Below, piece by piece: positions 20,801-58,100 of a stretch of 64,000 nt of DNA (positions are counted from its first letter, which is position 1; each line of letters opens with the position of its first letter). Origin of the DNA: Buxus sempervirens. Its lineage: Eukaryota; Streptophyta; Magnoliopsida; Buxales; Buxaceae. The stretch spans positions 36,127,829 through 36,191,828 of the forward strand of contig OX387187.1 in NCBI GenBank assembly GCA_947561395.2, written 5' to 3'. The notes below the pieces were generated by a model. It did not search any database and had not been told where the DNA came from. It was given only the letters and a program-made list of their open reading frames with translations. The translations under genes were made by a program, and so were the position numbers.

Positions 20801-23800
20801 TATTTCTCTTTGTTCTTATTAACCTAGTTATTACACTAACTCAATGGTAATATTTCAAAAATGTCAACAAAAAGTTAACTGTTTATTACCATTTATGTTA
20901 TGGTTGAATTTATCAGGTCATTGGACTTTTGGTGTGAAATTCTACAAGAAACAATTAATTTTAGACTACATAATTAGTACATATGCGAAGCCTTTGGTGA
21001 GTTTCTTTTTTATAACACCATTTTCAATTACATGCAAAAATTTCTTCTCATTTCGTAGTACATTTTATTTCTCCTATATTTATTGTATATTTGGATGTTG
21101 TTCTAAAAAAAGTAATATGTTTGAAGGTCTCTCTTATTAATGGAATCGTTATGGGAGGAGGCGCTGGACTATCGATTCACGGGAGGTTTCGAGTTGTTAC
21201 TGAGAATGCTGTAATTCTCAAACCTTAGAAATTCAATTTGGAAAACTAAACGAGATACTGATTTTTACTTCCTTAATATGTAGGGCGGTTTTAATCATGT
21301 GGAGGAGAAGATCTTCAAATGGAATATAACCTTGAACTTAACTCTTCAAGATTTATTCACATGCTACAAAATTATAATCTATGTCCAAAAGACTCGTTGA
21401 ACCTAATCAAGAATGAGCACAATAACTAAATTTATCATTCATGGCTATTCTCTCAATGTTTTCATTCTTTGTAATTTGAAGACCAAAGGCAACCTTAATC
21501 TTAGTAAATAGATTTGCCAATAAAAATAGTTACATAAAAAATAAAGGCTCACTAACAGATGAAATCATAAAAAGCAAAATTTTTCTTTCCATGAATATCA
21601 ACAGTAAGGATCAGTAGTATATACATCATCATTTTCATTTTCCAGTGTACAGATTTCTTGTATCTAATAGTTATATAAAATTTTGAACTTATAGTGGAAT
21701 TTAGAAGTAATCACATTATCTAAAAATTGAACTCATGTTTGCCAGTTTGTCATTTGATAAGGCCATCTAACAAAATGATTACCAAAAATATGCAATAAGT
21801 CGTTCTTAGTCACTTGCTAAGTTATAAATCTAGAATGCCATGATATTTAAATTTAAAATTCATGATCAACAAGGCTAGGATGAACACATATAAATTGTTT
21901 GTCTAAGAAACTTACCATTATTTGAACTGGAAAGCATCAAATCTGACCTCTTGAATGAGCATATTAAAGCATTATCCATTTACTTTTTCTCTTTCAATAT
22001 ATAAAACACAATTATTAACTTCATTATACAAGTGTTTATTAGAGAATTATTTAATATTCAAGTAAAAACTGACAAGTACTTCTTGTTGTTTCTTGGCAAC
22101 TTAAGGTAAATTAATAAATATTGATATAAAGTTGTTCTAGATATTTTGCCTCTCAATAATTTTCTTCTAAGATCAACTTGTGCTCTAACTTATGTAGGTA
22201 TTCGCTATGCCAGAAGTAATGCTAGGGTTATGCCCAGATGTTGGTTCGTCTCATTTTCTATCTAGGATCCCAGGATTCTTTGGTAAGCTAAATCTTGTTT
22301 TGGTCAAGAAACTTATCATGTGAAACCTTCAAAAGCTTGTGATCATTTAGCTTTAAAATATTGCGCTTTCACTCCTCCAATCAAGTATAAAAGTAGAAAA
22401 AGAAACATGAAAAAACCATCAAAAGTTGGATTAAAAAAAAATCCAACTAAGAATGCGATGGAGTAATCTTATCTTGAGGCAGTCCCGGCATGAAATAAGT
22501 AGTGGAATTGATAATGTTGTGTTTAGGGTGGTGTTTGATTCACTGGCAAAGGGTATTAGTGAACGTATGGAATGACTATTTCAATTTTGATTGATTTCCA
22601 AGATTATCAAGAAGTTTCATATTAATGTTGTGGATAGCTACTGAACATTTAAATAATAAGGATTTTTAGTTTCATAGGGAACTTTAGTATAACATCTTCT
22701 TGTTTTTGTTGAGAAATTTGGCCCCTACAAATATTTGACTCATAAAAAACATGTCATCTTCTTGTATTTATTGTATTCTCCAATGCCTAACAGGGGTATA
22801 TTTGGGACTTACTGGTGCTCGATTAGATGGAGCTGAAATGCTTGCCTGTGGCCTTGCTACTCACTTTGTTCCTTCCAAGGTATTAAATTGTATTATACAT
22901 ATAAAGTAATTAATTTAAATTTTAAGTAGTTATAAAATTCTTCATAAATGAGCAACAGAACACCATGCCAAAAAGTGTTAAGCGTAAAATGTAATTAAAA
23001 TTTTGTTTCTAAGTTTATAACCTATCTTGCTTAGAAGTAGTATTACTAACATCACCTTTTGCTTATGATAGGATCTGCCCTTGTTGGAAAGCAGACTATC
23101 TGAATTGGATTCTTGTGATCCAACAATTGTTTCCAAGGTTATAGATGGGTTTGCGCAAAGACCATCTGTAAAAGAAGATAGCATGTATAACAGGTGATCG
23201 GCAACTAATGTTGCCTTAAAAATATAATTTTTCTGATTTTTGTTATATTATGTGTTGCTCATATCTTCAAATGATTTTAGAATATGTATGTCAAGATACT
23301 GTTGACATGCCTAAATGATTTGAGGCATGACAGTGATATCAATCAATGCAGATTGGAGATTATCAACAAATGCTTTTCAAGAAAAACAGTTGAAGAAATA
23401 CTAGTAGCATTGGTATGCCATTTTCGTGCACCCAGATTACATTTGAGGAAGAAGTCAAATTCTTACAATTTAACCTTAATGTTATATGATCATATTATTT
23501 CTTAGAAATGTGTAATAGAGTCCCAGCAATGTGATTTTGCATTGTGTTTCATATTTTCAACTTTTTTCCAATTGTATATTTTTTTCATGCTTGTGGTATT
23601 TTGTTTTTATTAGTTATTACTCTTCTATTTCTGAATATTTTCTTATTGTGAAAAAAAAATTGCAGAAGGATGAGAATGTGAATGAAAGATACAAGTGGCT
23701 TACTAAAGCAATAAAATCTTTGAACGACGCATCACCAACATGCCTTAAAGTATTTCTTAGATCAGTAAGAATCACACATAAACCACTTCTCAGAAGTAAA

Positions 23801-24382
23801 AGATTTGAAATATTAGTGGATAAAACAGAGTGGAAGAGGATTTTACTTATTTGGATTGAACTAATTTTATTCTACTTTTACAGGTTCAGGAAGCTCAAAC
23901 TCAAAACCTTGGGCAATGTCTAATTCGTGACTACAGAATCGGGTCTCATTCCGTTAGAAGAACGGTAAACAATGACTTCTTTGAGGTGTGTAGAAGTGAT
24001 ATTCAAAAGCATTACATAGATATGATTGGTGTTTTGTTTTACACTTCTAATAAACCTTCAAATCTAGGGCTGTAGAGCGATACTATTTGAAAAAGATGGA
24101 AAACCCAAGGTTAAGTGAATTTATCTCTTTCTCTTGAATATTTACATGGCAATCTCTTTAGTCTTCAAGTCAAGAGGGTCAAATAAGTTTTATTAATTGC
24201 AACCTTCATTTTTTTTTATCTTTCTATTTATTTTACAGTGGGAGACTTCAAACCTTGAGGATGTTAGCAAGGAAATGGTCGATCCATTTTTCAGAAAAGT
24301 TGATGATGATGATTATGATTGGAAAGATCTAAAACTTCCTATCAGATCCAATCCATCAAGTACATCAAAAGCAAGACTTTGA
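17853..24382 (+). CDS. CHY1: 3-hydroxyisobutyryl-CoA hydrolase, CHY1 type, copy B
   Basis: Second intact paralogue with the same role as copy A (peroxisomal thioester hydrolysis). Exons: 17853-17891, 18615-18695, 20019-20087, 20683-20746, 20917-20996, 21127-21210, 22198-22282, 22794-22879, 23072-23193, 23352-23412, 23666-23764, 23884-23985, 24068-24109, 24239-24382. All junctions keep phase; the product has 385 residues. Motifs [33 protein letters not shown] (Glu145, Asp153) and C-terminal ARL are kept. By hand count it differs from copy A at about 32 residues plus a 2-residue insertion near the C-terminus, so roughly 92 percent identical. The exon 6 donor (GTAATT) is better than in copy A. 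Intron 2 carries a MITE. Nothing in the sequence suggests it is inactive. Confidence 0.93.
19310..19704. mobile_element. hAT-like MITE, family 1, copy 3, in intron 2 of CHY1 copy B
   Basis: A 395-bp insertion (CAGCGTTTTCAG ... TGTAATCCTTG) has a perfect 8-bp duplication CACTTAAT at 19302-19309 and 19705-19712. Copy A carries the empty site TACTTAAT at 8455-8462 in otherwise matching intron sequence, so both ends are fixed exactly. The insertion therefore happened after the segmental duplication. Confidence 0.93.
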
Positions 24383-25152
24383 GCTTTCCTAATGAACTAC
24401 TCCAATGACATTTGCTATAAGACTAGGTTACTTTTCTGATCTTTCAACTACTAAATAATTGTTGTTATTAAGACCAATGGTTGCAAGATGTTGGATTGAT
24501 GACTCTTGGAAATGGTAATATGAATATCCCATTAATTATCAATTAGTTGAAATTAAACTCAGTACCATCAAGGGAATATTTACTTATATTATGGGGAAAA
24601 TGCTGCTGCTTGGCCATCAATTAATCAAAATCTAATATTGCCTCATTCATTATGAAGTGAATATATGTTGTCATACCCAATTTGGAAGTGATTGCCCGTG
24701 ATGAGGGTATTCATGAGACACTGTTCAATCACCATAACCAAAGGTTTGTTGCATGATTAAAAATTTGAAATCTTGAGAAGAATGAGACTATTAACAATTT
24801 AAAGAGATCACACCCTGATGATAAAACACTCTTAGAATTCTCAGGCAAATTTGGGTTGTAATGTATTATTCATTCATAATATGTATTTGTACTTTGGTTG
24901 GATTTACAAAGAGTTCCAAAATTGCTCCTAACAAAATCTTATTTATAGAAGCCATATGCAACTTCTTTTCAATGTCAAAGTTGGATTTACATATTATTTA
25001 CCGAGTTCATGAAGTTATTAGAGTGGACAATAGAAACACTATTTGTGGACTTGCCTTTACACAAAGAGTAAAAGTCAGAATTGCTTCCAATTGCCTTTTG
25101 ATAAAGTTCTATAATGATCTTATAAGGGAATTAGTTGGCTAAAAAAAATGTG

Positions 25153-27237: not shown

Positions 27238-29112
27238 CTCTACAAAAAATTAGGTTTTTCGCGGCGTTCATAAAAATGCCGCCAAATCTAAAATAAACGC
27301 CGCTATAACCATTGGCGACGAATTGAATTTTGTCGCTGAAGGCCACGTCGCAAATAATTTGCGACGTTTTATGCATTAGTCGCCAAAAGTAAACGATTTG
27401 CAGCATGCTATGAGTGTCATTATGTTCGTCGTTATAGATGTAAATCAGAGACACACATATGAATGTCGCTATTTCTTTTTTCTTAGCGACACACATATGA
27501 ACGTCATTATTTGTCTATTTTCATGACACACATATAAACGCCGCAATTTGTTTATTTTAGTGACAAACATTGAAATGACGCTATTTGTTTTTTTAGTGAC
27601 ACACATATAACTGCCACTATTTCTTAATATATAGCAACACAAATAAAAATGCCACTATTTGCTTATTTTAGCGACACACATAAACACCACGATTTGTTTA
27701 TTTTAGCAACAAACATAGAAACAACGCTATTTGTTTTTTAGTGACATGCATATAACCGCCAGGTCCACCACTATTTGTTAATATAGAACGACACAAATAA
27801 AAACGCTACTGTTTGCTTACTTTAGCAATACACATACAAACGCCACTATTTCTTTAATTTAGCCACACATTTGAACATGTTTAATTTAACGACAATTCAA
27901 TGCATGCCATTATATGTTTATATTAGTGGCACACATTTTGAATGCCTAAATAGATATATACAACGGCATTTAAAAATGCCGCAAAAAAGCCAATTATAAA
28001 CAAATAATTGTTTTGTCGAACTGATTTTTCCTTTTCACCTATAATAATTAATTAACCAATAGATATGATAAAACTCTAAAAATGAACACAAATTAACACA
28101 TATGACAAATGCAAATAAGCTTATTAATTATTATAAATCAAAGGTAATATAAACAAAATCAATAAAGAAAAGAAAAAAATTATAGTCATATGATAACGAA
28201 TAAACAATAAGTTGTTCCCTAATAAGCAAAATGATAGTCAATTATAGCAAAATAAAGAGTCTCTAGGTTCTCTGTTTCCCCTTGTTAGCAAATCCTCCAT
28301 GGAATCTCTGTAAAGAAAATTGAAAATGAAAATGTGTTAGGAAGGCAACAAATATCAATTATTTCTTATAACCTATATACTAGAATTTAACATAAACATT
28401 AATCATACAGCATTTTTCTCCACTTGATCCAATCGCTGCGTAAGCATTGCCATAGTTTCTTTTAATGAAGTCATTTCTACGTCCTTGGTTGCCATAGATT
28501 CTTTCAATGTGATCATTTCTATGTCCTTGATTGCCATAGACTCCTTCACTGATGCTATTTCTGTATCCTTGGCTACAAGTTCATCACGTAATGATCTAAC
28601 TTCATCTTGTAAAATAGGATCTAAAGTTACAGCTGCTCGAGTGGAAGATCCCCATAATGTACTTGGTGTTGGGCCAAACCATATCCACGTACTTGTCCAC
28701 GCCTTTCATCAGTTCCCATAACTTGGGAATAAATATCATCTCTTCCAGTATTATCTTGTGATGCAATTTCTGGTTGGGATAATAATTCTTCAATTTGTCT
28801 CTGCAAAGTAATTTGATGTATATCCATAAATCAAAGACTAGAAATTTAAACACAAACAAAGAGAAATTAACAATAATCCAAAAACCAATGTCACCAGTTA
28901 TAAATTGGATTTTTAATAAACAAAAAAATTAAATAAATTGCATTTACCTTCTCCGATTAACTCCAGCAACCGTGGCTGGAAAAAGGGAAATTCCTACTGA
29001 ATAACTTCAAAAATTTCTTGATATCGTATAATTTCTTGCAATCTATTTTGATATAACATATGGATCACACATCTGGAATTTGTGATCCTTTAATAAAATT
29101 TTTTGTAGCAGT
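27238..29112 (-). mobile_element. CACTA (En/Spm) element, internally deleted
   Basis: The left end CTCTACAAAAAATTAGG and the right end, read inverted as CACTGCTACAAAAAATT, are close to the CACTACAA-type termini of the superfamily. From 27250 to 27965 there are many subterminal repeats of the form GCGACACACATATGAACGCC. A C-terminal transposase relic lies at 28403-28827. At 1.9 kb it is far shorter than an autonomous element. A 3-bp target duplication could not be settled. Confidence 0.6.
28403..28827 (-). pseudogene. Ptta/En/Spm plant transposase C-terminus
   Basis: The minus strand reads DDIYSQVMG, then GQVRGYGL, the signature tail of Ptta/En/Spm transposases. One missing base after the GYGL codons shifts the frame; in the next frame the protein goes on GPTPSTLWGSSTRAAV and into a coiled coil ending LDQVEKNAV and a stop at 28403. 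The coiled coil contains three 14-residue repeats (KDTEIASVKESMAI-like), two heptads each. The frameshift and the lack of the N-terminal part show it is dead. Confidence 0.75.
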
Positions 29113-32620: not shown

Positions 32621-35031
32621 TGTAGACACCCCAAATTGCACCCCAATATAAGAGATTAACTAAGATGGGCTTTAAATGTCTTACTTGAGCCTTGACATGT
32701 GTCAAGCTTTCAAAAACAATCAAAATCAGTGCCAACCGCACTGTGTATGCGGTTTTTATAATCTCGGTCTCAACCGCTCTGTATGTGCGGTTGCAACCGC
32801 ACACACAGCACGGTTCACATCAAGGCTTGTTGCGCTGGCGGCCACGTGGCTTCGCGAAGCTTCGGCCGTTAAGCCGCGTGGACAGCAATCAATTAAAGCA
32901 TAACTGAATTGAACCGCCCTGTATATGCGGTTTGGTCAAATTTATACATGAACCGTACTTTGAGTGGCGGTTGTGTAGAAACCGCACTGAGTATACGGTT
33001 TTGGCTGTTTCGGGGATTTGTGAAATGGCTTGATCCCTGAGCCTTATTTATGCATATTACCTCTCTCTTAGGGACTTGAACTCCCTATTTCACCCTCCGA
33101 AACTTGCTGAATTACTCCAATTCAAGCCTTGGAGGAGAATTGGAATAATCTAGAAGGCCTTTTTGGCCTACCCTTGGGACTCTTTTACCCTTGACTTGGC
33201 CTATAAATAGAGGGGTCCTCCTCTTGCAAATGGCTGACAATCTGAAGCTTAGAAGCTCTGCAAGAAGAAGGAGAACCTCTGCTGGATTGGCTACTCAACT
33301 GTTCAAGCTACTAAGGTAAGGCCTATTTGAGTTATTGCTTCCCTTTTAAGTTCTAGCAAATCTCTCATCTTCTACCTTTCTGTAGTGTAAGACCACCTTG
33401 TGTTGTTTGCAACCCCAAACCCCTTTTAAAGTACCTGGGAATCCTCTCTAGCCGTAAAACGTGAAGAGAGAGCCTGGGGAAAAGGAAGGTGGAATGGATC
33501 CTCTAGGTTTAGAACCCTCAAATGATGAAAAGCACGCTATATGGTTATTTTGAACCCTTGAATGCTTCTCTGATTTTATTTATATTTGGAGAAGATGTGA
33601 ATCCATGCTCTCAATAGCCATGGATTCCAACTTTCTCATAGAAATGTGATTTTTCACATCTTCGCACCCACTTTCCACCATTTTTATCAAAATAGGCTAG
33701 ATCTTGGATTTCCATGTGAATATGGAAAATCTGAGATCATTGGCCTTAGAATGAGTTTTTAGAACTTCATGAGAGGATTTCTTGTTGATTTTGAGGTTTT
33801 GGTCGAATCCACATGCACACATGCACCGGTTTCCATGTTTCCTCTTCAAAAAACCTCAAAACAGGACAGATCTGTGGCCTGTCTTGGAAGACTCATAACT
33901 TCATCCTCCGGATGAATTTTTGAGTGATTCCAAAGACATGTGATAGATTGGAAAGCCTATTTAATATCTGGAAATTTTCATCCACTTCCATGTAGCCAAA
34001 TTTTGACATCATCTCTTCAAAATTTGTAAGACAGTTCAGCCCAGATTGCTGAACTTGCCGCTTTGATGGTGCACTATTTGCTCAGTTTTAATCCGTTTCC
34101 TATGATTTTAATTTCTGAGTTTTCTTTGAGAAGTCTATTTTCATTTCCAACTGGTTTCAGCAGATTTCAATCTGTTTTGTGTCTTGGGTGCTCAGTTGAC
34201 TCAGAGGTGCTCGCTGGCATGGTCCAGAGCTCATCTGTGGTCTTCTAGGCCTGTTCAAGAGAGCACACAAGTCACATCCGGATAGAGATTGGTGTGAGGT
34301 CTTTTTCTTTGGAAAGATGGCACTACATACTTCCTCCATACCAATTTTCATGGATTTTTATTGAGCCAAACTCCACGAATAGAGCTTTGAAAATGCCTAC
34401 TTAATGCTTTTTCTGAGTTATAACAGCAGATTTCATATGTGGATTTCTCTTTTGTTTTGAATCGGATTGAGCTGAATTTTCTACTGTATATTCTACTATG
34501 TACCAGTTTTCAAATGGCTTTGGTTTCATTTGATTTGGATTTAAATTGAATGAGTTATGGTTAATCAAAGCTTTCAAGCTCTTTTGACCTAATTTCTCCA
34601 GATTTGCCTTAGCTGGATTTTCTTCATTTCTATCTTGATTTCACTTCACTCATGAAGTTCTAGAAGTGATGGATCCATGAAGAGAGCCTAAGTTCATTAG
34701 ACTTCTCATGTGGAAAGGTCACACACATTGTGCTTGTTAAGCACCTCTTAGTTTATTTTACTAACAAATGATTTAAAGTATGAGCAAGCATATGGTAACC
34801 GTCTTAGACGGATGAGTGGGGGTGCCTAACACCTTCCCTCACTCATAAATAATTCCTCGTACCCAATCTCTGGATTTTCCTTGTATTAGAGCTACTTTGG
34901 CTCTATTTGACATCTATGAACCCTTTGGTGTCCATTCACACCTTAAAATGGATGGTGGCGACTCTTATTTTTATCGATCCCCGCGTGACGATAATCGGAA
35001 GTCATCCGAGATGACGAATCCATGTCTCACA
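32621..35031 (+). mobile_element. solo LTR 1 of a Tat/Ogre-like Ty3-gypsy retrotransposon
   Basis: A 2411-bp TG...CA unit (TGTAGACACCCC ... CATGTCTCACA) is flanked by GGCAT (32616-32620) and GGCGT (35032-35036), a 5-bp duplication with one change. There is no primer-binding site after it, so it is a solo LTR. Inside are a U3 array of six short inverted repeats (32734-33000), a TATA box CCTATAAATAGAGG (about 33200), an AGAAGAAGGAGAA leader ending in the donor-like CTAAGGTAAG, and near the 3' end GGGTGCCTAACACCTTCC and GGATGGTGGCGACTC. All of these are shared with LTR 2. Assignment to the Tat/Ogre lineage is inferred from LTR 2. Confidence 0.8.
32734..33000. repeat. U3 inverted-repeat array of LTR 1 (AACCGC...GCGGTT)
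   Basis: Six short palindromes start near 32734, 32772, 32795, 32912, 32951 and 32979. Each has an AACCG(C) arm, about 8-11 bases (often CTGTAT-like) and a (G)CGGTT arm. The array lies about 200 bp upstream of the TATA box. Confidence 0.8.
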
Positions 35032-35099
35032 GGCGTAATGGTAAAAAATTTCCTCAATTTTTTGGAAAGTAAATTGTCAGTTATATATGCAACTGTTAC

Positions 35100-37868
35100 T
35101 GTAGACACCCCAAAATTGCACGGTTTTTGATAAATCTTGAAGGAGAGATATTTTATTGGAATTTTCAATTCTTTGCATTGGGTTTGAGGTACTTAACCCA
35201 TTTGAATCCAAAACGGAAAAGGAAAAGGCCCGAATTCAATCTTTTGTGCAAAGTCAAACTTTTTCCGGGTGAATTTTGTTGACTTTTGAGCCCAGAAAAT
35301 GAAATATTTTTTAAAGCCAGATTTCAAGATAATTTTTCCCGGTAATCAGGTTTTTAGCCATGTTATTGCATAAAAGAATTTTTTGAGATTTTAAATCTTG
35401 GCGAATACCTTGGTTTTAACATATTGAACCTTTTTTTCCAGACCTGAAAAATCGGAATTTTGCCTAGAACTGGAAAGTTGACTTTTTATTCACTTGGAAT
35501 TTGGGTCTGGAACTATTTTTAATGGATTCAAATGGGGGGTGTTTGCTTATTTACATGTAATATCTTAAGTAAATGGAGATTAAAAAATACGAGGACATTT
35601 ACTTAAACGATATTATATGTAAATAAGTGTTGCCTGTGTTAAAATTTGGAAAAAAGGCTTTTTTCCTTGTATCCGGCAACTCAGGCCGGATACAAGTACC
35701 TTTCTTTGTATCCGGTGGAACATACCGGATACAAGCAGTGCTTAGTGTATCCGGTATTGTATACCGGATACCTTAAGGACCTTGTGTATCCGGCCTGATA
35801 TACCGGATACGCAAGTTTTGCTCAAAATTAGGGTTTTCCGAGAGAAATCACTTGTTACCATCATGTCCCTCATTAAATGAGGGGAAATCTCGGAAATAAC
35901 CTTAGGGTTAAGGTTGGGGGGTTCTAGACATTAAGTTGTGTCTACCAATGACCTTAGCCTTTGCTTATAAATAGGAGACTCCTCCTTAAGCAAATGGCAC
36001 TCAACTCTTGTTTTGAATTCTCGCAAAGAAGAACTCCAAGAGAAGAAGAAAACCGCTGCGGAATCACCTCCAGAACTCAGGTAAGCCTCAACTTTTCTTT
36101 TTATTTTCTGTCTTTACATCCCTAGATCTAGATCTCTTCTTCTACCTTTCTGTAGTGTAAAGCCTTGTTTGTATGTGTGGAAATCCTTCCCCGGCTCAAA
36201 GTATCTCAAGATTCCCCTAGCCGTAAAACGTGAAGACGGATCTAGGAGAAACGAGACTGGGGATTGACCCTAGTGCTAGAACCCATGTAGCATAAGGCCT
36301 TTTTGATTGATTGTAAACCGTTCCATATTCAAAGTACCCTTGATTATCTTGAAGAACCGTGTTTAACGGGGAGAGAGAACAGAGGGAAACGATAATGGAA
36401 CGGAACCCTAGGCTATCTTAGAACCCTATTTGGATGAATATGTATGCATGCTATTGATCTTGTTTGGTTTTTTTACACTTGCACATACATATCACTATTT
36501 TGGCGGGATAGGCTCATATTTGGGGTTTATTGCATTTATTGTGATAAATCTCAAATAAATGGCCTCAATCAATTCTGGAATGTCTTTTCAATGATTTTTA
36601 AAGTATTTGTGTTCATCTTGCACGAATCACACATTTTTATCACTTTTCGGATTTGGTTTTTCTTCAAGAATGGCTTAGCTTGACAGCACCTGTACCCTTA
36701 CTTCGGACGCCCATAACTTCATCATCCGGATGAATTTTGGGGCGATTCCAGAACCATGGGAAAGGTGAGGCTGTCTAGTTTATGTCCACCAAATTTCACA
36801 AATTTCTATCAAGCGGATTTTTGACACCTCTCTGTCGAAGTTGAGTGGACAGTTCAGGTTCAAATACAGAACTTGTCACTTCGACGGACCGCCATGTGTT
36901 CGTTTTAAGTCCGATTCGAGTGATTTTTGTTTCTGAGTATTCCTTTATGAGTCTATTTTCAAATCCAGTTGGTTTCATAATTTTTGGATTCCATTTGAAT
37001 TATTGGTATCCGATTTACTCAGAACTGTTCATTTGTACTTTTCTGGGTAAATCTGTGATCTTCGGGGCCTGTTCGGGAGACCACCCAAGGCACATCCGAA
37101 GGGATTTTTGTATGAGGCTAGTTTCTTTTGAAAAATGGCCATACAAACTTCAATCACACCAAATTTCGTGGACTTTCATGTAGTGGATTTTTCTAGACAA
37201 TTTTCCAAAGGTGCCCACTTACCACTTTTAAAAATCCCCAGTAGCAACTTCAAAGGAGCATAACTCCTAGATTTTTCATCGGAATGAAGTGAAATTTTGC
37301 ATGAGACTCTTATTTACCCTAATCTTTCAAATGGATTTGGTTTGGTTCAATTTAGAATTGGGTTTGAATGATTTCAAGGCAAATGGCATACTTTTTACCG
37401 AATTTTCCGGATTTGATTTAACTTGGTTTTGAGCAACTTGAGCTTTGATTTCCATCTTTTGAGATATTCCAGAAATGATATTGACATGAGAGGGGATCTA
37501 GAATCCATTTAGATCTTCATGTGGAAATATCATATATTGGTCTTTTTTCAAGGTTTTCTATGATTTTAGCAAGCTTTCTTATTTTTGTATGAACATACAC
37601 TTGGCTACCACTTCGTGTGGATGAATGGGGGTGCCTAACACCTTCCCCCGTTCATAATCTAATCCCCTTACCCATCTCTGGATTTGATTTTCAAGTAGGG
37701 TTATTTTTATCCTAGAATGTTTCTTTTGGCTATTTTTGCTTATTTGTGAACTCTTTGGTGTCCATTCTCACCCCAAAATCATGAATGGTGGCGACTCTCC
37801 CATTTTTGCGATGAGCCCGTGTGTTGACGGAGGGATGATCATTCCGGTGATTTTTCCCATGTCTCACA
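35100..37868 (+). mobile_element. LTR 2, 5' LTR of a truncated Tat/Ogre-like Ty3-gypsy element
   Basis: A 2769-bp TGTAGACACCCC ... CATGTCTCACA unit is followed after two bases by a primer-binding site (37871). It is homologous in layout to LTR 1: U3 hairpin array (35667-35810), TATA box GCTTATAAATAGG (about 35960), AGAAGAAGAA leader with CTCAGGTAAG, GGGTGCCTAACACCTTCCCC near 37630, and ATGGTGGCGACTC near 37790. No matching 3' LTR and no gag-pol frame are found, so only the 5' part of an element remains. Confidence 0.8.
35667..35810. repeat. U3 inverted-repeat array of LTR 2 (GTATCCGG...CCGGATAC)
   Basis: Four palindromes are present: 35667-35695 (10-bp perfect arms, loop CAACTCAGG), 35706-35734 (11-bp perfect arms), 35747-35771 (10-bp perfect arms) and 35786-35810 (8-bp perfect arms). 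They hold the same position before the TATA box as the unrelated-sequence array of LTR 1. Confidence 0.9.
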
Positions 37869-37870
37869 AC

Positions 37871-37887
37871 TGGCGACTCTGCTGGGG
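37871..37887 (+). promoter_or_regulatory. retrotransposon primer-binding site
   Basis: TGGCGACTCTGCTGGGG lies two bases after the LTR end TCTCACA. It starts with TGG, as complements of a tRNA CCA tail do. From memory of Tat/Ogre elements the primer would be an arginine tRNA; the identity of the tRNA was not checked. Confidence 0.75.
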
Positions 37888-39370
37888 ACTTGTGGATTTA
37901 AGCCATTTTGTGTATATTCATGCTTTTTCATCACTTTTGAATGCTTGCTATTTTGTTTGTTTTATTTGTGCATAATGTTGTATTCTAAATCAGATTGGGA
38001 TGCTTTTGAATTTTATATGAATCAAGTCATGTATGTTTTGCTTGATGTTGCCTAAAGGTTGATTTAGGAAAAGCCTATCTTGAAGCATGATTTGGTTGTA
38101 TTTGGTGATAACATGCTCTAATTTGAATTTTGAATACCATGGTTTGAATATAAGAATTAGTAGCATGAAATCAAGGAGTTCAGAATTTTTTGGGTATTCA
38201 AACATGATTCCTATGAAGCATACTTTTTTGTGCTTAAAAATTTTTTGTTATGCCATGCCTTTGTTTTGGGGTATAGAGGGATTCAATTTGAGCATGAAAA
38301 CCAAGAGCATGAAATCTGGAATTTTAGTGCATATTGTGGATTTTTTTTTAGTATGTTCACCAATATACCATGTCAAGTAGTTGCTAAACTTTTAGGCATT
38401 AATTTGGGGTATGAAGGATGCACTTTTGGGCATGAGAAATCTGAAAATTTTAGTGCATATTTCTGGAGATTTTAAAGCATATTTTACCTCATTGAAACAC
38501 TTTTGAACCATGCCAAGTAGTGCTAAAATTTTAGGCTTCAATTTGGGTAGAAATGGTACACTTTGAGCATGAAAAAAAGCATGAAATCTAGAATTTTAGG
38601 AATGCTTTTGGGTTTCAAGCATGCTTACATGATTTAATTGTTGTTTGTACAAATAACATGTTTTGTATACCACTTTTTGGGCATGTAATATTTTTTGTGC
38701 ATATTTAGTTGTTTTGGTGCTTGCTTGCTTGTATTTAGCTTCATTATTTTTGTCATATGTACCTTGGCTTGAAATGGAATGCATGGCTACGAAAAAGAGT
38801 GGCAAGGGGCTGGGACGTTGTGAATGTTACCACAATTTTAAATTGCACTTGAGCACTTGAAACAATTTGCACAGCCTACCCATTACCTATTAGGAAGTTG
38901 AACCATGAATGTGTGTAGCTTGGCGCACCGAGGTCGTGACTTCGGAAAGCGAAAGTGAAAACATTTACCTTAGAATTTGGGTCAATGATGTGATGACAAT
39001 GGGATCTGTGATTCGATTCCGGGCATCACTAGACTTGAGTTCTAAGTTGTCAATTAAGCCAAAACCCAAAAACCATACGCTTGAAGGTGGAGAAACACGT
39101 TTTCAGCTAAAAGCACATAATTGCGTTTGGGGAATTGGGTGTAAATGTGGGAAGGCCGTTTGCATGTTTTACAGGCCAAGGTATAATGTATTGAATGAAG
39201 GTAATACAAGGTAGCAAGGTAAAGCCATGTTCTTTTCATGAATGTATGAATTGTAGATAATACCATGTCCAAGCCCAATCTGGGGCAAGTTTTGGGGGTC
39301 AAGTTAAGGTGAACATCAAATGGGAATGAAAAAAAACTTAATCTGGTGAAAAAATGAGTCAAAAAAGGCC
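37888..39370 (+). other. leader region of the truncated Ty3-gypsy element
   Basis: Non-coding. It contains loosely repeated phrases (AGCATGAAAnC, GAATTTTAG, CATGCCAAGTAG) between 38.1 and 38.6 kb. No gag frame is seen. Confidence 0.5.
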
Positions 39371-39379
39371 ATTTCGGCA

Positions 39380-39524
39380 TTAACCGGCAACTCAGGCCGG
39401 TTAAAAACACTTTCCTTCAGATCCGGTATATATTTCCGGATACAAAGATATATGCGTGTATCCGATAACCCTAACCGGATACAATAAGGCATATTCTTAT
39501 CCGGTATATTATACCGGATACGTT
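39380..39524. repeat. third copy of the U3-type hairpin array
   Basis: Four palindromes: 39380-39404 (TTAACCGG-CAACTCAGG-CCGGTTAA), then 39421-39441, 39458-39482 and about 39498-39524 (ATCCGG/CCGGAT types). The first keeps the loop CAACTCAGG of the first hairpin in LTR 2 while both arms differ. It lies well downstream of the LTR, so it may be a displaced U3 fragment of another copy. Confidence 0.8.
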
Positions 39525-39813
39525 CAAAAAAATGCACAAATTGACTGTTCAGCCCAAATTTTCAGAATAAAATGCCTAAAACACTGTGGATAATCCTTAG
39601 GCACCCTGAAAAGAACATAAGAAATGTTCCAAAAATACAAAATCAAAAACAAAAAAAATACAAAAAAAAAAGAATAAAATAAAATATTCTTTCAGGATTT
39701 AACCTAATTTTAAAAATCAAAGAGGGAACCAAGGTGTCATATTTTTTGATACCAATTCAACTCAAACATATTTCAATCAAGCTTTTGCATTTGAAAACTG
39801 AGAAAATTCAGAA

Positions 39814-40385
39814 GAAAGAAACCTTTCGTTGGTTATTTTTATCAATCAAAGTCAAAATTTTTAGGACCTTTGGAAGCCTCAGAATATTCCAAAAAAAAAA
39901 AAACCTTTGGTTGGTTATTTTTATCAATCAAAGTCAAAATTTTTAGGACCTTTGGAAGCCTCAGAATATTCCAAAAACCTTTGGTTGGTTATTTTTATCA
40001 ATCAAAGTCAAAATTTTTAGGACCTTTGGAAGCCTCAGAATATTCCAAAAACCTTTGGTTGGTTATTTTTATCAATCAAAGTCAAAACTTTTTAGGACCT
40101 TTGGAAGCCTCAGAATATTCCAAAAACCTTTGTTTGGTCACGAGAACCACTCAAAGTCAAAATTTTTAGGACCTTTGGAAGCCTCAGAATATTCCAAAAA
40201 CCTTTGTTTGGTCACGAGTACCACTCAAAGTCAATTTTTTTAGGACCTTTGGAAGCTTCAGAATATTCCAAGAACCTTTGTTTGGTCACGAGAACCACTC
40301 AAAGTCAAAATTTTTAGGACCTTTGGAAGCCTCAGAATATTCCAAGAACCTTTGTTTGGTCACGAGAACCACTCAAAGTCAAACC
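39814..40385. repeat. 74-bp tandem array with internal hairpin
   Basis: About eight units have starts spaced 74-75 bp (39901, 39975, 40049, 40124, 40198, 40272, 40346). Each contains TTTGGAA-GCCTCAGAATA-TTCCAAA, an inverted repeat. The first units carry GGTTATTTTTATCAATCAAAGTC; the later ones carry GGTCACGAGAACCACTCAAAGTC. Long open frames across the array arise because 74 is not a multiple of three; they are not genes. Confidence 0.95.
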
Positions 40386-40690
40386 TTTTTGGGCCATCTA
40401 AAAGCCTCTGAATTTTAGACACATATCCTCTGGGCCGTCTATAAGCCTCTGAATTATAGACATATATCCTTTGGGCCATCTAAAAGCCTCTGAATTTTAG
40501 ACACAACCTTTTTGGGCCATCTAAAAGCCTCTGAATTTTAGACACAACCTTTTTGGGCCATCTAAAAGCCTCTGAATTTTAGACACATATCCTTTGGGCC
40601 GTCTATAAGCCTCTGAATTATAGACATATATCTTTTGGGCCATCTAAAAGCCTCTGAATTTTAGACACAACCTTTTTGGGCCATCTAAAG
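40386..40690. repeat. 41-bp tandem array of hairpins
   Basis: Seven full units and one truncated unit of GGGCC(A/G)TCTA(A/T)AA-GCCTCTGAA-TT(T/A)TAGACA. Five have TCTAAAA/TTTTAGA arms and two have TCTATAA/TTATAGA arms. The order A-B-A', A', A-B-A' suggests a higher-order unit. The last, truncated unit merges with copia gag sequence at about 40690. Confidence 0.95.
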
Positions 40691-40790
40691 ATTTCAGATA
40701 GGCTCGCATTCTTGCCTTCCAATAGGCATAATTTGACCCATCAAAGAGGGGTGGCCTAGAGGAAGAAGCCCCTTCTTTGTTGTAGTCCAT
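40644..40790 (-). pseudogene. start of a Ty1-copia gag, running into the hairpin array
   Basis: On the minus strand the ATG at 40790 opens a frame with RPPLFDGSNYAYWKARMRAY (residues 12-31), the conserved N-terminus of plant copia gag proteins, then LKSLD. From there the sequence becomes the 41-bp array and a stop follows after 48 codons. The start lies 41 bases after the primer-binding site at 40844-40832. The rest of gag-pol is missing. Confidence 0.8.
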
Positions 40791-40831
40791 AGAGAACCAA
40801 GATCTTACTCTTTAACAGATTTGAGTGGAGT

Positions 40832-41632
40832 GGCTCTGATACCAATTGAGATTTCTAATCTCAGGTCCCTGTTCTCTAGGATTCTAAACACCAAGAAAGG
40901 ATTACAATAACAGATAACGAAACAGTGAAAAGATATCACACTATTAATCAAGAACAACCTATACAATTTGTCAAAATGAAACCACAAGTTTCTCTGAGTA
41001 AATTCAGGCCTGAAACAGGTGTATTAAAATGAAAAAGACAAATCAACTATTGTTCAGATCTACAGAAACTTTTACTAAAACAAAAAGTCACTTACAAGGT
41101 TGATTCCACAACCTTTGTTAACAAAACACTTATCTTCAACTTCTTCAGCATTCTCAAGGCTTCACTCGATCACCATGAGATAGCTCATGATTGCCCATTC
41201 CAATCTTTCACAGGTCTGGAATGTTCCTTCTTTGAAGACTTTCTCAGTCTTCCAAAAAGTCTGCAGCAACCTCCCTCACTGATCTCCTCCAGCTCCACTA
41301 TTCACCAAGCTCTCCTGGACCAAAGACCCCCTTCTCCCCTGCTTCAAGAAGCTTTAAATCAAGAGTTATTAACCCCTTAATAACTGCTGTAACCACCTGT
41401 AACTAATCTTGAAAACAACCTAACTAACTAGAAACAAACCCAACTGATTCTGAGAACAGCCCGAGAATCCAGTTGGTTGAGTAGCTCCAGCAAGTTACAC
41501 TTAACCTTGCTAGAAGCTATCTCAAGTCACACATTCAACCATACTTCACTTCATCAACAAACTGAATGTTTTAATAAATTTCAATACTCTTTGTCATGCA
41601 TTTTGTCACATGGGAAAATATATTTTCCAACA
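40832..41632 (-). mobile_element. LTR and primer-binding site of a minus-strand copia element
   Basis: The minus strand reads TGTTGGAAAATATA from 41632 to ...AATCTCA at 40847, a 786-bp TG...CA unit. Two bases further TGGTATCAGAGCC (40844-40832) is the initiator methionine tRNA primer site, followed by the gag start. The partner LTR is not in the window, so no target duplication can be checked. The 41632 side touches an inverted piece of CHY1 3' flank. Confidence 0.75.
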
Positions 41633-41639
41633 AATTTTG

Positions 41640-42310
41640 ACACTTGCACACTTGCTCCTCATAAGATTGTAAATCCAACCAAACTACAAATACTTATTAT
41701 GAAAAAATAATACATTACAAACCAAATTTCCCTAAGAATTCTAAGTAAAGAGTGTATTATCATCCAGGTGATCTTTTTAAATTGTTAATATTATCATTCT
41801 TCTGGAGGTTTCAAATTTTTAATCATGCAAAAATCCTTCAGTTAGGGTGACTGAACATGTGTCTCATGAATCACCTCATCCAAGGCAATCACTTTCAAAT
41901 TGAGGTATGGCAACATATGTTCACTTCATAATGAATGATGCAGTATTACATTTTGTTTAATTGATGGTCAAGCAGCAGCATCTTCCCCACAGTATAAGTA
42001 AATATCCACTAATGATACATAGTTTAATTTCAGCTAATTGATAATTAATGGGACATTCAGATTACCATTTCCAAGAGTCTTCAATCCAACAAATGTCATT
42101 AATTGGAGTAGTTCATTAAGAAAGCTCAAAGTTTTGCTTTTGATATACTTGATGGATTGGATCTAGTAGGAAGTTTTAGATCTTCCCAATCATCATCATC
42201 AACTTTTCTGATCAACCATTTCCTTGCTAACACCTCAAGGTTTGAAGATTGCAAAATAAATAAAAAGATTAAAAAAAAATGAAGATTGCAATTAATAAAA
42301 CTCATTAAAC
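41640..42310 (-). pseudogene. inverted fragment of a fourth CHY1 copy (last exon plus 3' flank)
   Basis: Read on the minus strand from about 42310, the sequence matches the end of CHY1 intron 13, exon 14 ([12 protein letters not shown]-like, VDDDDWEDLKLP-like) with a stop near 42136, and more than 400 bp of 3' flank as in copies A and B. The intron acceptor TTTACAG has become TTTGCAATC, and part of the exon is deleted. The C-terminus would read AKL, also a peroxisomal signal. Confidence 0.8.
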
Positions 42311-43410
42311 CGATTGATTGATTTAGGTGGCTTTCGAATAAACTTCAAGAAACCGCCTTTTTGCTTGCAAAGAAAAAAACCACAAAATTCAATAAGATCC
42401 ATGATCTTACAGCAGTTTGTTAATTTAGAACAAGGTTTTTCATTAAATAAAGACCCAATACATTCATTTGGTAAGTAAGAAGTTTCTTAGCCTTTAACCA
42501 GAAACATGATTAAGGTACACAAAACCTCTAATCATAAAAAGAATTTTTTAGCTAACATTGATCATCTTTATTCTGGTAGATCACCTACAATAAATCCAAT
42601 TAACTCACTAACTTCTATGCATGGAACCATAATACTAGCTCATGAAACACAGCAGCTTTCTTGAAATTCCCGTATAAATTTTATACTACTTCTGATTTGC
42701 TCCAGTTTTAGTTTTTATCCAATGTCTATAGGGCTTGGCATTTAGAAGGAAACCCCATAGTCTAAAGTTTCTTTATCAGAATTCAAATGGTTGATTGACG
42801 AACAAGCATCATGTCAATAATTGGGTTTATTTGTCCTAGAAAGAATGTCTTTGATTGTTATTTATTTATCAATTTTCTCCATTTATTTCATAAAGTTTCA
42901 GCAAATGCTAGAAGAACACTCATTCCGTATTGAATGTATTAAACGAATTGCTTGTTGTGTGGCAAGCATCATTGCTAGAGCCCTAAAGAGACCCAATAGA
43001 AAGGCCCCTCACCTTGGTCCGCTCGCAAACAAGATAACAACAAACTAATTCCTACTCTCTCTTCAGAATCAAGTGTAATTCCCTCTGTGTCTTCAGAAAC
43101 AAAGCAAAGAATAACAGAAACCGGAATATTATTAGAAGGAACAGTCCCGCTTGAAGCTCCGACGGTAAGAAAATTTTATACACGAAACAAAGGAATGCAA
43201 CAGATAAATCGAAAAATTACATATATCAAAAGGGAAGGTTAAAAACAATTGTTTCCAACAGGCGATAGTTGCTAATCAAAACCTAAAAGGATGCTTTCAA
43301 ATCAAAAAATGGACAAATATACTGTACCATTTAATTTGTTAAAAAATTAATAAAATGCATTGGGCTTTAGCATTCACAAAAAGCCATTTTGGCATCCATG
43401 TAATGCCACT
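42311..43410. other. non-coding spacer
   Basis: AT-rich. Other CHY1 exons were looked for on the minus strand and not found. A 75-codon plus-strand frame at 42821-43048 has no recognisable motif. Confidence 0.4.
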
Positions 43411-52100: not shown

Positions 52101-55100
52101 ACTGAAAACAGAAGATGCAGAAACTATGTCTCTCCCATTCAGATTTTTAAACAGGTGTGGAATATGTGGAATAAGTATCGACTTACCCGAGTTCGGAATA
52201 AAAGATGAATGGAGAAGACAACGATCAGCTTGCTGAGAAGATTACAAAGACCAGCTCCTGAGAATGAAAGAACTGCTGATTGCCTGTGATGGTGCCTTGT
52301 AGCTTCTCTGTTTTGGAGGTATGATAACAGAGAGAAGACTCCACGGAGACAGAGAGTGGGTGTGAGGCTGACGCAGGTGGGTTGCGACAGAGAGATGGTG
52401 AGCGGGAGAGAGATCGAGAGTGAGAAAGAAGGCGAGAGAGTTGTGCGACAAGGGTTTTCGTCGCTGGATCTCCGTTAATCTCTCCAAGAATCGACCAAGG
52501 TTTTTCGTCCCTCACCAGCAGAAAAAATTAGAAGAAAAAGTCCGTCCTTTGATAGGAGAAAACTCACCCCTTTTAAAGGGGATGAGTTGCCGTTTTCAAC
52601 AGAGAGGGAAAGAGAGTCCTTGCACGAGAATGGAAAGCAATCACCTTTCTAGAGTGTTCGATCCTAGGAGAAAGGAAACAAAAAGGGTGAGAGAGATGAG
52701 CGAGATTCTTCAAAGATCTGGTTCGATCGACTGTTGGAACAGTCGATCGTGAGTTTCTAAAAACTGAAGAAAAGCTTATTTTGATCCGAAAAACCTTCTA
52801 TTTTCTTCCAATCCTCTTTTCTAAAACGTGGGAATCATTTCTAGATGATTCCCACTGATTTTGGGTTGCAAAATGGCAACCCACGAACGAAAACAGCAAG
52901 TTTTCGTTCGTAGAATAGTTGGGGTAGGTTTTTTGTAAATTTGAAGAATTTAAATCCTTTCTTGGTATTTTAAACAGTTCAGGGATTAAAAATTAAATTT
53001 TAAATTTTCACTTCCTCCCCTGTTTTCCAATTTTTATTTCAAAAGATTCCTTTCTCTGTTTTTGCAAATTAAACCCCCAGAATTGGGGTTCTGACAGACA
53101 CAATCAATCCTGGGCAATTACATCGTAATCATCAGAGTGCATGACTAAAGAAGCATAGAATAAAAATTTCCATTTAATCAAAATGTCATCTGTACTATAA
53201 TCTCCAAAACATGATATATATGTGAATAAAATACAAGTAAGGCAACTAACCATTCACAATGATCTCTTCAAAATATATAGACATGTACAAAAGATATCTC
53301 CCAAGAGTATAAGTCCAAAATAATATTTACATCCCATATACAATTCCCAAGACAAAATACATCATCATAAAAAGAACCCTACTATGTGTGGTAGCAGTCC
53401 TCTGGCCTGAACTAAAGCTCACCCTCTATATCTGCCCCGGTACGTGGCTCACCAAGCAGATCTGAAAACAAATCCGGTAAAGCAAAATGCGTGAGACTTA
53501 AAGTCCCAGTAAGCAGCAAACATGCATGTAGAGAAACAGTTTATGCAATTTTGTAACATCATGATAATATTCACAATTATAAGATACCAAATGTAAACCA
53601 AAACATCTCAAATAGATATAAAATGTAATTCCAAGTCAAATATCTCAATCGGGTAATTGATGAAATCAAATCAATCATTCCAAGTCAAATATCTCAATCG
53701 AGTAATTGATGAAATCAAATCAACAATTCCAAGTCAAATGTCCAAATCAGATTAATGATTGCTGTCCAAGATTAAGGCAAAGCGGAGTATTTCAACACTG
53801 CCGATGAATCAAGGCCCAGTGGAGTACTTCTACACTGCCGACGAAATCAAGGCCAAGTGGAGTACTTCTACACCGCCGACGCATCAAAGCCAAGTGGAAT
53901 ACTTCTTCGCTGCTCGATGAATCAAGGCTAAGTGGAGTACTTCAAAGCTGCCCGATGAATCAAGGCTATGCGGAGTACTTCTACACTGCCCCGGTTCATG
54001 AAATCCAAAATCAATTAAAACGAATACCATAAAATCCTCAAAATACATTTTGGATGAGTGGGATAGTCTTAGGATTCCTAATAAGGTCACCCTACCAAAA
54101 ATCAATGGATTCCGAGACGAAAAGTTTTGGACCTAAAAAATATTCTAAGTCTGGATAAAAACGTTGACTTTTTGGTGTAGATCTAGACAGATCTACAAGG
54201 AGTTTGGGGCTCAAATTCCGGTTGTAGTCTATTGGAGAGTAAAGGAATCTTTTAGAATTTTCTGGGCTTCTGAATCACTCGTTTGGGTATCAAACTCAAA
54301 AATGGCCCTTTTTGAAAATCGGGAAAACTGGAAAATTAGGCACAAACTGGAAAGTTGACTTTTTATTGGTTGGGAATTGGGCCTTGGGAGTATTTTTATT
54401 GGTTCCAAATGGGGGTAAAACCTTATTTACATGCAAAGATTTAAGTAAATGGAGCAATAAATACACAGAACATTTACTTAAATGTCTTTCATGTAATAAG
54501 GGTGCTGTACCGAGGGCTTGGGTTGTTTGGAAAGGGTTGGAGAGAAAAAGGGTAAACAACTCAAGAAACAGGGTCCACGATTAGGTCGTGGATTAATCGC
54601 CCAGGGGCAATTAGCTTTAGTGTTCGGGCGTTAAGGTTTAAAGTTCGGGCGTTGAGATTTAAAACAAAGGCAGCGCGCGCGCTTTAAGGAAATAAACAAG
54701 GCAATGTGCGCGCGTTGAAGGTTGTCGTCCGCACGTTCGCGCGCTAAGGTAATGGACGTGCGCGCGTTCCCTTTGAACTTTCGCGCGCTGAGGTTCTGGA
54801 TTAATCGCCCAGGTTAATCCTGAGCCGCGATTTAGAATAACAGAGGCTAGTTTTTTAGGGGTTTGGCTCAGGATTAATCGCCAATTTTCAGGATTAATCG
54901 CCATGTCGGGATTTTGAAATATTTTGGCTACTTTCAACACAAAACTCATAGAAATCATTTCCAACACTTCCAACATCAAATAGGATTATCATAAAACATC
55001 CCAACATGCTTTAAAACATTTTCCAAACCAAAGATTCATCCCAAATCCATATGAACACAAATCTAGCACATGAAATCTCATTCAAAACACAAATCTCAAA

Positions 55101-58100
55101 CCCTAATCTGAAATATAATCAATAGAGCTGTGAATCTATAGCAAATCAATAGAAAACTAAACAAGATTTATCATACAACCAAACCCTACGAATTTTAGCA
55201 ATAACACCCAAGGTTTGCCTTTTTCGTATTTCGGTAGGTCAGCGGCACGAAAAATGACCTCGAAATGGTCCTGCCTGTGTTTCGCTGGCTTTTCGCCGGC
55301 ACTCCGCGGCACGCCGCTAAATTTCGCCATTTCGCCAACAGTTCTCCAGAATTTTGCTAATTCTGGAGAAATTTTGGCACGCCGTTGGCACGCCGAAAAT
55401 TTCGCTAATTGTTGTGTTTGTCTAATTTATTTATGTTTTTTTTTTTCAAAAATGGCATTTCGGCGGCACGCCGCCAATTTCGCTAAAAACTTGTTTTGGG
55501 CCATTTCGACCGAATTTCGCCGAAATTTCGCCCAAATTTCGTTTCGGCCGCCTAGCGGCGCACCACGAATCGCCGAAAAGTCGATCCTTGATAACACCAA
55601 CATGCAAGATCATTTCATCAAATCAACCAACCCTAGAGAGAGAATACGAATTTTGGTAATACATTTTGTTTGAAGGGTTTGCTACTTACTTGCTAATGGA
55701 GAAACTCAACTTCTTTTCAAGCTCTTCTCTCCTTCTTCTTCTTCCTCTTGAAGCTTCAAGCAAGCTTTCACACTTCCCCTCTTGCTCTATACGACCCAGA
55801 CAAGAGAAAGTGTTCTAAAAAACACTTAGAATAGAAATTAGGGCATGCTTTTATATGCTCAAGTTTGGTCTTTCAAATCTGCTCCCAAACCAAGCTTTTA
55901 TTCAACTAAAACCCTAGGGTGTACCTAAGGCATACCAGGGGTACCTTAGTGTTATTCGAGTGGTGTACCTTGGTATTAAGTGGGGTACCTTAGTGTTAAG
56001 TGGGGTGTTTGCTTAGCCACTTCAAAAGGCATGCTTTAGGAATGCTTGGGAGGTGTACCTCAGTTAACACAAGGGGTACTTTAGTTATATGAGGGTACTT
56101 TGGTTATTTGAGGAGGTACCTTGATGTTTCAAGGGATTTACCTTAGTCATTCTAAGGGGGTAAACTTTGAATAAGCTTAGGGGGGTGTACCTCAGTTATA
56201 TTGAGGAGGGTACTTAACTATAGAAGGGGTGTACCTTAGTTATATAAGAGATTATACCTTAGGCAAAACAATGGGGGGTTTACCTTACTTATATAGGGGT
56301 TACTTTAGTTATACAAAGGGGGTACTTTGGCTATATAGGGGGTATACCCTAGGTAAAACAGTGGGGGTACCTTACTTATATGAGATGAGTACTTCTAGGA
56401 AATACAAGGGGTGTACCCTAGGTAATATAGGGGATATACTTTAGATATGTTGGAGGTACTTTAGTTATATAAAGGGGGTACCTCTAGCTGTATAAGGGAA
56501 TGTACCTTAGCTAAACAAGGGGTACTTCAAGTAAAACAGTAGGGTACCTTAGTTAAAATAAATGGTTACCTTAGACAATACAAGTGAGGTACCTTAGGTA
56601 TAATTAGGGGGTACTTTAGGTATTCGAATGGGGTACCTTGGGCAAAACAGTGGGGTACCTTAACCAATATGAGTGAGGTGCCTTAGGTAAGATAAGGGGT
56701 ACTTTAGGTATACATATGGGGTACCTTAGGCAAACACAAGAGGATACCTTAGGCAATTAAAGTAGGGTACCTTAAGGATACAAGTGAGGTACCTTAAGTA
56801 TAATTAGGGGGTACTTTAAGTATCACTTGGGTAGTACCTTGGGTAATACTTGAGCGTATTATGGGCAATACGTGGGGGTACTTTGGGTAATGCATGGGGG
56901 TACCCTTGGCATACTTGGGTGATACCTGGGGTAACACATGGTGTACTCTAGGTATACTTGGGTGGTACCTTGAGTAGTACATGGATGTACTTTGGGTACA
57001 CAATGAGGGTACCTTGGTTAATATAAGAGGTACTTTAGTGGTAATTAGGAGGGTACCTTGGGTATACTTGAGAGTTACTTTAAGTGTTCTTAGGGGATAC
57101 TTTAGGTACTTTTGAGAGACACCTTGGGTACTCTTAGGAGTTACTTTAAGTATTCTTGGGAGTATTTTGGGGTATACATGGGTATACACTAGTGTTATCT
57201 GGGAGGGTACCTGGGATAAACTTTGGGGTACCATGGGTATACTTGAGAATTACTCTAGGTACACATGAGTCTAACTTTTTAGAATTTGATTTCCAATTCA
57301 TTTAAGCTAATTGGAGAGTATCTTAGACAATTGGAATTGAGAAATAACATTATTTAAATTTACCTTAATAACCTTCATAAAATTCCATTGATTTCTCTAA
57401 ATCCTCAAGAATAATCCACATTTACCTCATCTTCATAACACAAATACTTAATTAGTCTAATAATCACACTTTAGATAATTAATCTTAATAATTAAGATAT
57501 AATCCGGGTCGGGGTTTTACACCTAAAGTCTGAGGAAGCTTTTTTTTTTTATATATTTGTTACTGATATTGGAATTGAAGAAAGCCACAGATTCTCTAGA
57601 CTTATATTTTGACCGGATGCCCTTGCATATGCTTGAAGAATCTATAGCAGTTTTTTGCATTTTCACTTTGAGTCTTTGAATTAGATTAGGCTATTGTTAG
57701 CAAATAATAAATGATTAATGATTGGGCCATCTCTGCTTGGTGTAATGCCAGGTAGCTCTCCTTTATTTTTTGCATCTCTGAGCAGGAAGGGAAAGCTTTT
57801 GCACAAATAATGAACAAGTACGGTGATAAAGTGTGCCCCTGATGTAATACTCTACTAGAAATTATCTTTTGCATCATTTTGATTGCTTGAATACTTGAAA
57901 TTTTATCTAAAGAAAATTTCCTAAGGGAAACTTCCCTTCTATATTGTCTCCTTCTTTAGATCATCCCCGATGACCACATCAGCTTTCTGTTCTTCAGTAC
58001 AAGTAAGAGAACTCCATAGACCTTGTCCTGCATTCCCATCTTCCAAAAAGCCTAAATCCTGATCTTGAAATCTTTAAATAAAATATTGCCAACATCGACA

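Follow-up and report, generated by a model that had tools for sequence, protein, structure and literature searches.

Both minisatellites of the window, the 64-kb stretch of DNA analysed here (G+C 35%), are one tandemly amplified structured element of a retrotransposon 5' leader, which in intact relatives stands in the order PBS-array-gag. The retrotransposon is a truncated LTR element of Tat/Ogre type, and the arrays lie in its leader, 3' of the PBS. An initial annotation had described two neighbouring minisatellites built from hairpins with a covarying stem and a kept loop. Both arrays were found, but together they represent a single leader feature; the description of the hairpins is borne out in the window and extends genome-wide. 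The main hairpin (HP-A) mostly keeps its loop, GCCYYWGAA, and an upstream GGG, and the changes in its 7-8 bp stem are mostly in matched pairs. Judging from the sequence, the row of hairpins is probably a structured RNA signal. We tentatively suggest, at somewhat less than an even chance, that it is a multi-copy signal whose role would be to mark unspliced genomic RNA for packaging.

The 5' LTR of the host element (Table 1) begins with TGTAGACACC and ends with CACA ahead of a PBS-like site; where it could be matched to L104 and L083, identity was 90.5-90.6%. The PBS-like site presumably matches a tRNA-Arg primer. When the leader was compared with that of L085 in 80-column bins, identity was 0.69-0.89 for 38746-39218, against 0-0.51 before and 0.25-0.49 after this block. 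Between subfamilies this block shows higher conservation than the remaining PBS-to-array stretch, and the single-base indels found between subfamilies argue against its being coding. The element is cut by a Ty1-copia fragment, which has a gag start ATG at 40790 (DUF4219 above the Pfam cut-off, Retrotran_gag_3 below its cut-off), a PBS-like site at about 40831-40844 and an LTR at about 40847-41633, the ends being set by eye with a motif that we assume to mark them. To the left of the element, a diverged second LTR-like stretch (32624-35032), delimited by eye and partly matched elsewhere in the comparison, begins with TGTAGACACCCC and ends near ATGTCTCACAG; it is perhaps a solo LTR.

Table 1. 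Features of the array-bearing element and of its surroundings in the window.
Feature	Position	Strand	Basis or remark
5' LTR of the array-bearing Tat/Ogre-type element	35100..37868	+	ends by eye
PBS-like site TGGCGACTCTGCTGGGGA	37871..37888	+	identical string after CTCACAAC in L083, L084 and L085
Conserved leader block, read as leader exon	38746..39200	+	identity window versus L085
Putative 5' splice sites AAG|GTAA, AAG|GTAG, AAG|GTAA	39201..39222 (GT at 39201, 39211, 39219)	+	
74-bp array, two hairpins per unit	39819..40390	+	TRF; two units folded
Seven HP-A, 11-nt loop	39869-39893, 39951-39975, 40025-40049, 40100-40124, 40174-40198, 40248-40272, 40322-40346	+	
41-bp array, seven full units and a partial eighth (40678-40689)	40388..40689	+	TRF, unit comparison
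Seven HP-A, loop GCCTCTGAA	40397-40419, 40437-40461 (8 bp), 40479-40501, 40520-40542, 40561-40583, 40601-40625 (8 bp), 40643-40665	+	
Ty1-copia fragment cutting the element	40690..41633	-	translation, Pfam

Other identities of the arrays were considered and rejected. An origin from the copia gag is contradicted by the copia frame, which enters the array for about 14 codons and then stops, and by L083-L085, where the element's own gag comes after the array. As for coding sequence, two array ORFs were compared with Pfam and gave nothing above cut-off. A tRNA identity was likewise rejected, and a search of 39300-41000 against Rfam brought up ten matches (E up to 5), all of them below their gathering scores.

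The two arrays hold 14 HP-A hairpins. The 74-bp array was delimited by TRF at 39899-40383, with a longer-period row beginning at 39819, and its seven HP-A all have TTTGGAA as their 5' arm; the loop, of 11 nt, is GCCTCAGAATA in six of them and GCTTCAGAATA in one. Five units of the 41-bp array read TCTAAAA-GCCTCTGAA-TTTTAGA and two, of the TCTATAA stem type, read GTCTATAA-GCCTCTGAA-TTATAGAC; the latter carry a G-C pair at the outer position where the other 41-bp units show an A.C mismatch, which extends their stem to 8 bp. The three stem versions around nearly one loop are present as first described, except that two of the seven 74-bp units (loops starting at 40255 and 40329) carry a one-arm change, the 3' arm TTCCAAG, which turns the outermost pair into T.G. 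Within the 41-bp array, units 1-3 match units 5-7 at all but 2 of 123 positions and form with them a duplicated block, that is, a higher-order repeat, as the initial annotation had proposed. Since both TCTATAA units lie within this block, the A-to-T change matched by T-to-A on the other arm is a real paired change but counts as one event, not two.

Single units are no stabler than chance. The DNA-fold z for single hairpins or units ranged from -0.76 to -1.99 in seven pieces, and the RNA-fold z of sense units from +0.49 to -1.79. A second hairpin (HP-B) was present inside both types of 74-bp unit that were folded. Direct similarity between the 74-bp and 41-bp consensus units is modest, as 85 of 5000 shuffles scored equally high, and their homology is accepted mainly because both unit types occupy the same place in a genome-wide family.

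This family is abundant. Across the 676.5-Mb assembly, GCCTCTGAA, the loop sequence, was counted 34,196 times, loop sites outside arrays included, versus 1,936 times for its reversed control. Isolated loop sites have stems of only 0-2 bp (18 sites at 17 loci, L086-L102), which indicates that pairing is a property of the arrays rather than of the loop word. In viral contigs, a degenerate loop pattern, run with no control pattern, matched 74 stretches once each, and these candidate viral relatives were dismissed as chance.

Related arrays occupy the same place, 3' of a PBS-like site and followed by gag, in L083, L084 and L085 of the same genome, and Retrotrans_gag was detected in an ORF that begins where the L085 array ends. 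Next to L083, one ORF of L107 encodes RVT_1, RT_RNaseH, RVT_3 (415-533) and rve (700-797), with a G-patch ORF before this pol ORF and an antisense ORF with a plant mobile domain after it. The RVT_3 match presumably marks a second RNase H. A second RNase H of archaeal type, placed after the first one and ahead of integrase, is the mark of the Tat clade (PMC6317226), and with its presence in L107 the element is assigned to the Tat clade of Ty3/gypsy. Within this clade, Ogre and Retand are told apart by tree position, PBS type, TSD length and the position of the extra ORF; a plant mobile domain has been reported in 57% of Ogre elements (PMC6317226), but the ORF that carries it here is antisense and follows pol. 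Two LTR stretches of the L085 element are 99.81% (1,074 bp) and 100% (730 bp) identical, which implies that this carrier moved recently, and no ORF of at least 250 residues was listed in its 3' flank (L106). The L085 element thus looks recent and non-autonomous.

A gag motif was found at 756 places, versus none for the reversed control. Thirty gag-anchored leaders were inspected, being the first places listed on contig C1 and not a random sample, with L108, L112 and L113 giving way to longer pieces of their elements (L083, L084 and L085). Two or more hairpin units were present in 28 of the 30, the exceptions being L132 and L136; 13 leaders had at least two nine-loop units, 18 had at least two eleven-loop units, and 3 had both. 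In the 1.5-kb leader piece L114, an unrelated 147-bp tandem array (28-538) stands beside only a few hairpin units.

Stem pairing was assessed in 59 leaders: 27 gag-anchored ones, the window, L083-L085, and 28 others picked by the gag letters that accompany the nine-loop class (L166-L169 were left out of this count). From 950 units, 929 in 56 leaders were kept, after removal of 14 isolated matches and 7 misread eleven-loop units; three leaders kept no unit. The nine-loop class comprised 744 units from 40 elements, and all seven pairs were Watson-Crick in 645 of these, or 675 with G.T allowed. The 645 are accounted for by four fully paired stems, which differ from one another by changes on both arms: TCTAAAA/TTTTAGA (271 units, 35 elements), TCTGAAA/TTTCAGA (243 units, 32 elements), TCTATAA/TTATAGA (110 units, 35 elements) and TTTGAAA/TTTCAAA (21 units, 9 elements). 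The remaining 99 units represent 48 imperfect arm pairs, of which the most frequent is found in 11 units of 8 elements. Pairing reached 97.2% of cells in register, against 11-45% when the arms were slid by 1-3 bases.

The initial annotation had let its claim depend on whether paired changes outnumber single-arm ones. Counted from the commonest state, they do so at pair 3 (121 versus 14) and at pair 4 (297 versus 23), but at pair 6 the single-arm changes prevail (43 versus 23); both arms had changed without forming a Watson-Crick pair in 3, 6 and 2 units at pairs 3, 4 and 6. Its further suggestion, a structure being kept or copied through a foldback, stands as far as the keeping of structure goes, because changes at pairs 3 and 4 are mostly paired and pairing in register is so high; between RNA selection and DNA foldback, the strand-symmetric single-defect counts given below do not decide.

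Moreover, variation is unevenly distributed along the unit. In 277 nine-loop units the diversity of hairpin columns outside pairs 3, 4 and 6 was at most 0.10, with the exception of loop position 5, which is C or T (0.49). Diversity was 0.12-0.13 in the columns of pair 6 and rose to 0.30-0.67 over the nine columns that follow the 3' arm. The low loop diversity is helped by the search anchor, which allowed one mismatch at most and by itself favours loop conservation. The upstream GGG was present in at least 252 of the 277 nine-loop units and in at least 130 of 144 eleven-loop units. A pseudoknot between GGG and loop was considered and set aside, as outside the window element the contingency contributed little.

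The nine-loop units are not independent, and perhaps only three of the compensations in this class are independent (pairs 3, 4 and 6). It is conceivable, if quite improbable, that a few founder hairpin types of chance origin were multiplied by tandem duplication and transposition: the 744 units do reduce to four main stems, and the paired change of the window is one event. Chance founders, however, do not explain why perfect pairing is shared by the four main stems and imperfect stems are rare, nor why none of 500 arm-letter shuffles was as well paired, either for all units or for the 52 distinct arm pairs, although the shuffles ignore relatedness. The 5' arm and loop of the TCTGAAA type resemble a direct duplication (GCCTCTGAAA-GCCTTTGAAT, at L085:2250-3110), and such a duplication of arm and loop is a possible origin of the hairpin.

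The main rival to an RNA signal is upkeep at the DNA level, in which template switching or quasipalindrome correction would copy one arm from the other during replication or reverse transcription, and tandem exchange would spread the product with no RNA function involved. We regard it as possible, though on the unlikely side. Template switching can create compensatory changes and maintain stems in one event, so that paired arm changes like those seen here could arise in a single step, although it has been described for RNA genes and not for retrotransposon arrays (PMC8794818); the higher-order duplication is plain in the window. The strand test speaks for the same mechanism. As the arms are reverse complementary, mutation should supply G.T and A.C equally, and the nine-loop units with a single defect comprised 29 G.T, 32 A.C and 25 others (p 0.80 for G.T versus A.C), a symmetry which a DNA mechanism predicts and which gives no support to selection on sense RNA. 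Counted as defect cells, the 744 units had 40 G.T and 45 A.C; a lean towards G.T in an earlier, smaller sample (21 versus 12 cells, p 0.16) is gone in the larger set. Nevertheless, many stem defects may be post-insertion, hence symmetric under any model, and even the recent L085 element had a defect in 7 of its 50 units (three G.T, one A.C, three other). DNA-level copying, favoured by strand symmetry, is not favoured by the constancy of the loop: it leaves unexplained a loop fixed amid diverging spacers, a contrast to which the loop anchor contributes, and the same-place array in 28 of the 30 sampled leaders.

On a longer scale, a 301-nt piece of the L085 array gave a fold z of -3.10 in sense and -1.00 in antisense. 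The strands were about equal for a piece of the L111 array, which belongs to the other class (-3.34 sense, -3.16 antisense).

In that eleven-loop class, pairs 1-5 hardly vary and all seven pairs are formed in just 57 of 144 units. Some units of the eleven-loop arrays in L109, L120 and L125 have the stem CTTGGA/TCCAAG with a different loop, TAGAGTAG, and in L109 they adjoin normal-loop units. HP-B, in leaders with 71-78-bp units, mostly keeps a 9-bp stem around a free loop. Its 179 units, from 25 of 63 leaders, gave 1,347 Watson-Crick cells, 236 sense G.T, 2 A.C and 26 others. This sense-strand G.T excess fits RNA; nearly all the wobbles come from two positions (145 units), so their origins are few.

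The array may lie inside a leader intron, as suggested by splice-site-like sequence on both sides. Three tandem AAG|GT sites, seen by eye, are found at the matching place in the window, L083, L084 and L085, and conservation between the window and L085 drops there. Downstream, a CAG|GTAC follows a pyrimidine-rich stretch upstream of gag in 27 of the 30 leaders (L127, L132 and L136 are without it), and an ATGAA string lies 51-72 nt past it in 25 of these 27 (in L117 only at 306, in L123 none). In some rows CTGAC, CTAAC or CTGAT, which we take to resemble a branch site, stands about 25-30 nt before the CAG|GTAC (by eye, uncounted). Cut by the copia fragment, the window copy lacks an acceptor. The evidence is weaker for the donors than for the acceptor, since no site passed a strict donor score and the cluster was then spotted by eye. 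In L085 the putative intron would measure about 3.0 kb, array included. Its non-array part is A-rich (A 0.37, T 0.27), unlike the U-richness described for plant introns (PMC3735527).

If the intron is real, the hairpins might simply aid splicing, by compacting or tuning a leader intron whose length follows array size. The AAG|GT cluster, CAG|GTAC and CTRAY-like sequence that flank the array, together with the size of the putative L085 intron, would suit this role. It is nonetheless improbable, as compaction requires stems and not a fixed loop, and no donor passed the strict score.

Under the packaging reading, a spliced gag mRNA would lose the array and the full-length genomic RNA would keep it. 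The repeated loop would act as a multivalent binding site, probably for Gag, and this binding would pick out or dimerise unspliced genomic RNA for packaging. The variation in array length would come from tandem units that expand and shrink while the signal is kept. A stricter version, a minisatellite packaging code in which the intronic array would bind Gag multivalently on unspliced RNA only and copy number could vary freely because each unit would be a complete signal, is rather doubtful. Position and sequence pairing agree with a structured RNA, of predicted structure, between PBS and gag. Packaging is favoured by the loop excess, the arrays in 28 of 30 leaders, the perfect major stems, the pairing in register, the steady hairpin columns amid variable spacers, the sense G.T of HP-B, the sense fold of L085, the recent movement of the L085 element and the splice-like sites; against it stand the lack of strand asymmetry, pair 6, the L085 defects (7/50), the eleven-loop stems (57/144), the equal strands of L111, the lack of a strict donor, the A-rich part of the putative intron, the lack of an Rfam gathering match in 39300-41000, the two positions behind nearly all HP-B wobbles and the few independent compensations.

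The choice of genomic RNA by plant LTR retrotransposons is, to our knowledge, largely unknown. The retroviral psi is a structured leader RNA between PBS and gag that serves packaging and dimerisation. The Buxus arrays share its position and, if the putative intron is real, would share its loss on splicing, but they comprise tens of tandem copies and their binding by Gag is putative. The packaging signals of one small plant RNA virus are taken to be stem-loops with a common motif. Degenerate packaging signals have been proposed for this virus; they are likewise short degenerate signals within one RNA but are not tandem, and they belong to a different kind of element (PMC6475782).

Within the same clade, the hypervariable tandem repeats of Tat/Ogre/Retand elements are also family-specific short arrays in non-coding DNA, but the positions reported for them are after gag-pol or in the stretch from pol to the 3' LTR (PMC7004042, PMC11963269). 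The Buxus arrays are upstream of gag, in the order PBS-array-gag in L083, L084 and L085 (the window copy being truncated on the gag side), and consist of covarying hairpins. For non-chromoviruses, tandem repeat arrays are reported in expanded non-coding regions, the side not being stated (PMC6317226). Plant LTR elements are known to splice some of their transcripts: BARE has separate RNA pools and a 104-nt intron just after gag, and Ogre has an intron between ORFs (PMC3735527 and work cited therein), whereas the putative intron here would be in the leader. A DNA-level counterpart, located elsewhere in the element, is offered by the clustered palindromic motifs of Sireviruses (PMC2829016). That the Buxus hairpins are likewise DNA-binding palindromes is very improbable, given that a dyad site keeps its arms, the reverse of the changing arms and kept loop found here, and that the arrays lie between PBS and gag, not upstream of a TATA box in the LTR. 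In the open-licence literature no description of a leader hairpin array was found, and passages of PMC5819184 yielded nothing on such arrays.

These arrays are a case of hairpin tandem repeats that look constrained. Kept loop, paired stems and putative intron would together make a defined test RNA, whose natural stem variants could serve as built-in controls, and the units form a data set for separating RNA selection from template-switch upkeep.

Elsewhere in the window, 6934-13705 and 17759-25122 form a direct duplication of about 7 kb, its pieces mostly 87-93% identical, the end of which matches 41667-42321 in inverted orientation (84-89%). A degenerate tandem array with units of about 22 bp, of the GGGGTACCTTAGG kind, spans 56180-57244, and other tandem arrays lie at 53774-53990 (38 bp), 27450-27869 (37 bp), 17020-17251 (22 bp) and 63710-63901 (41 bp).
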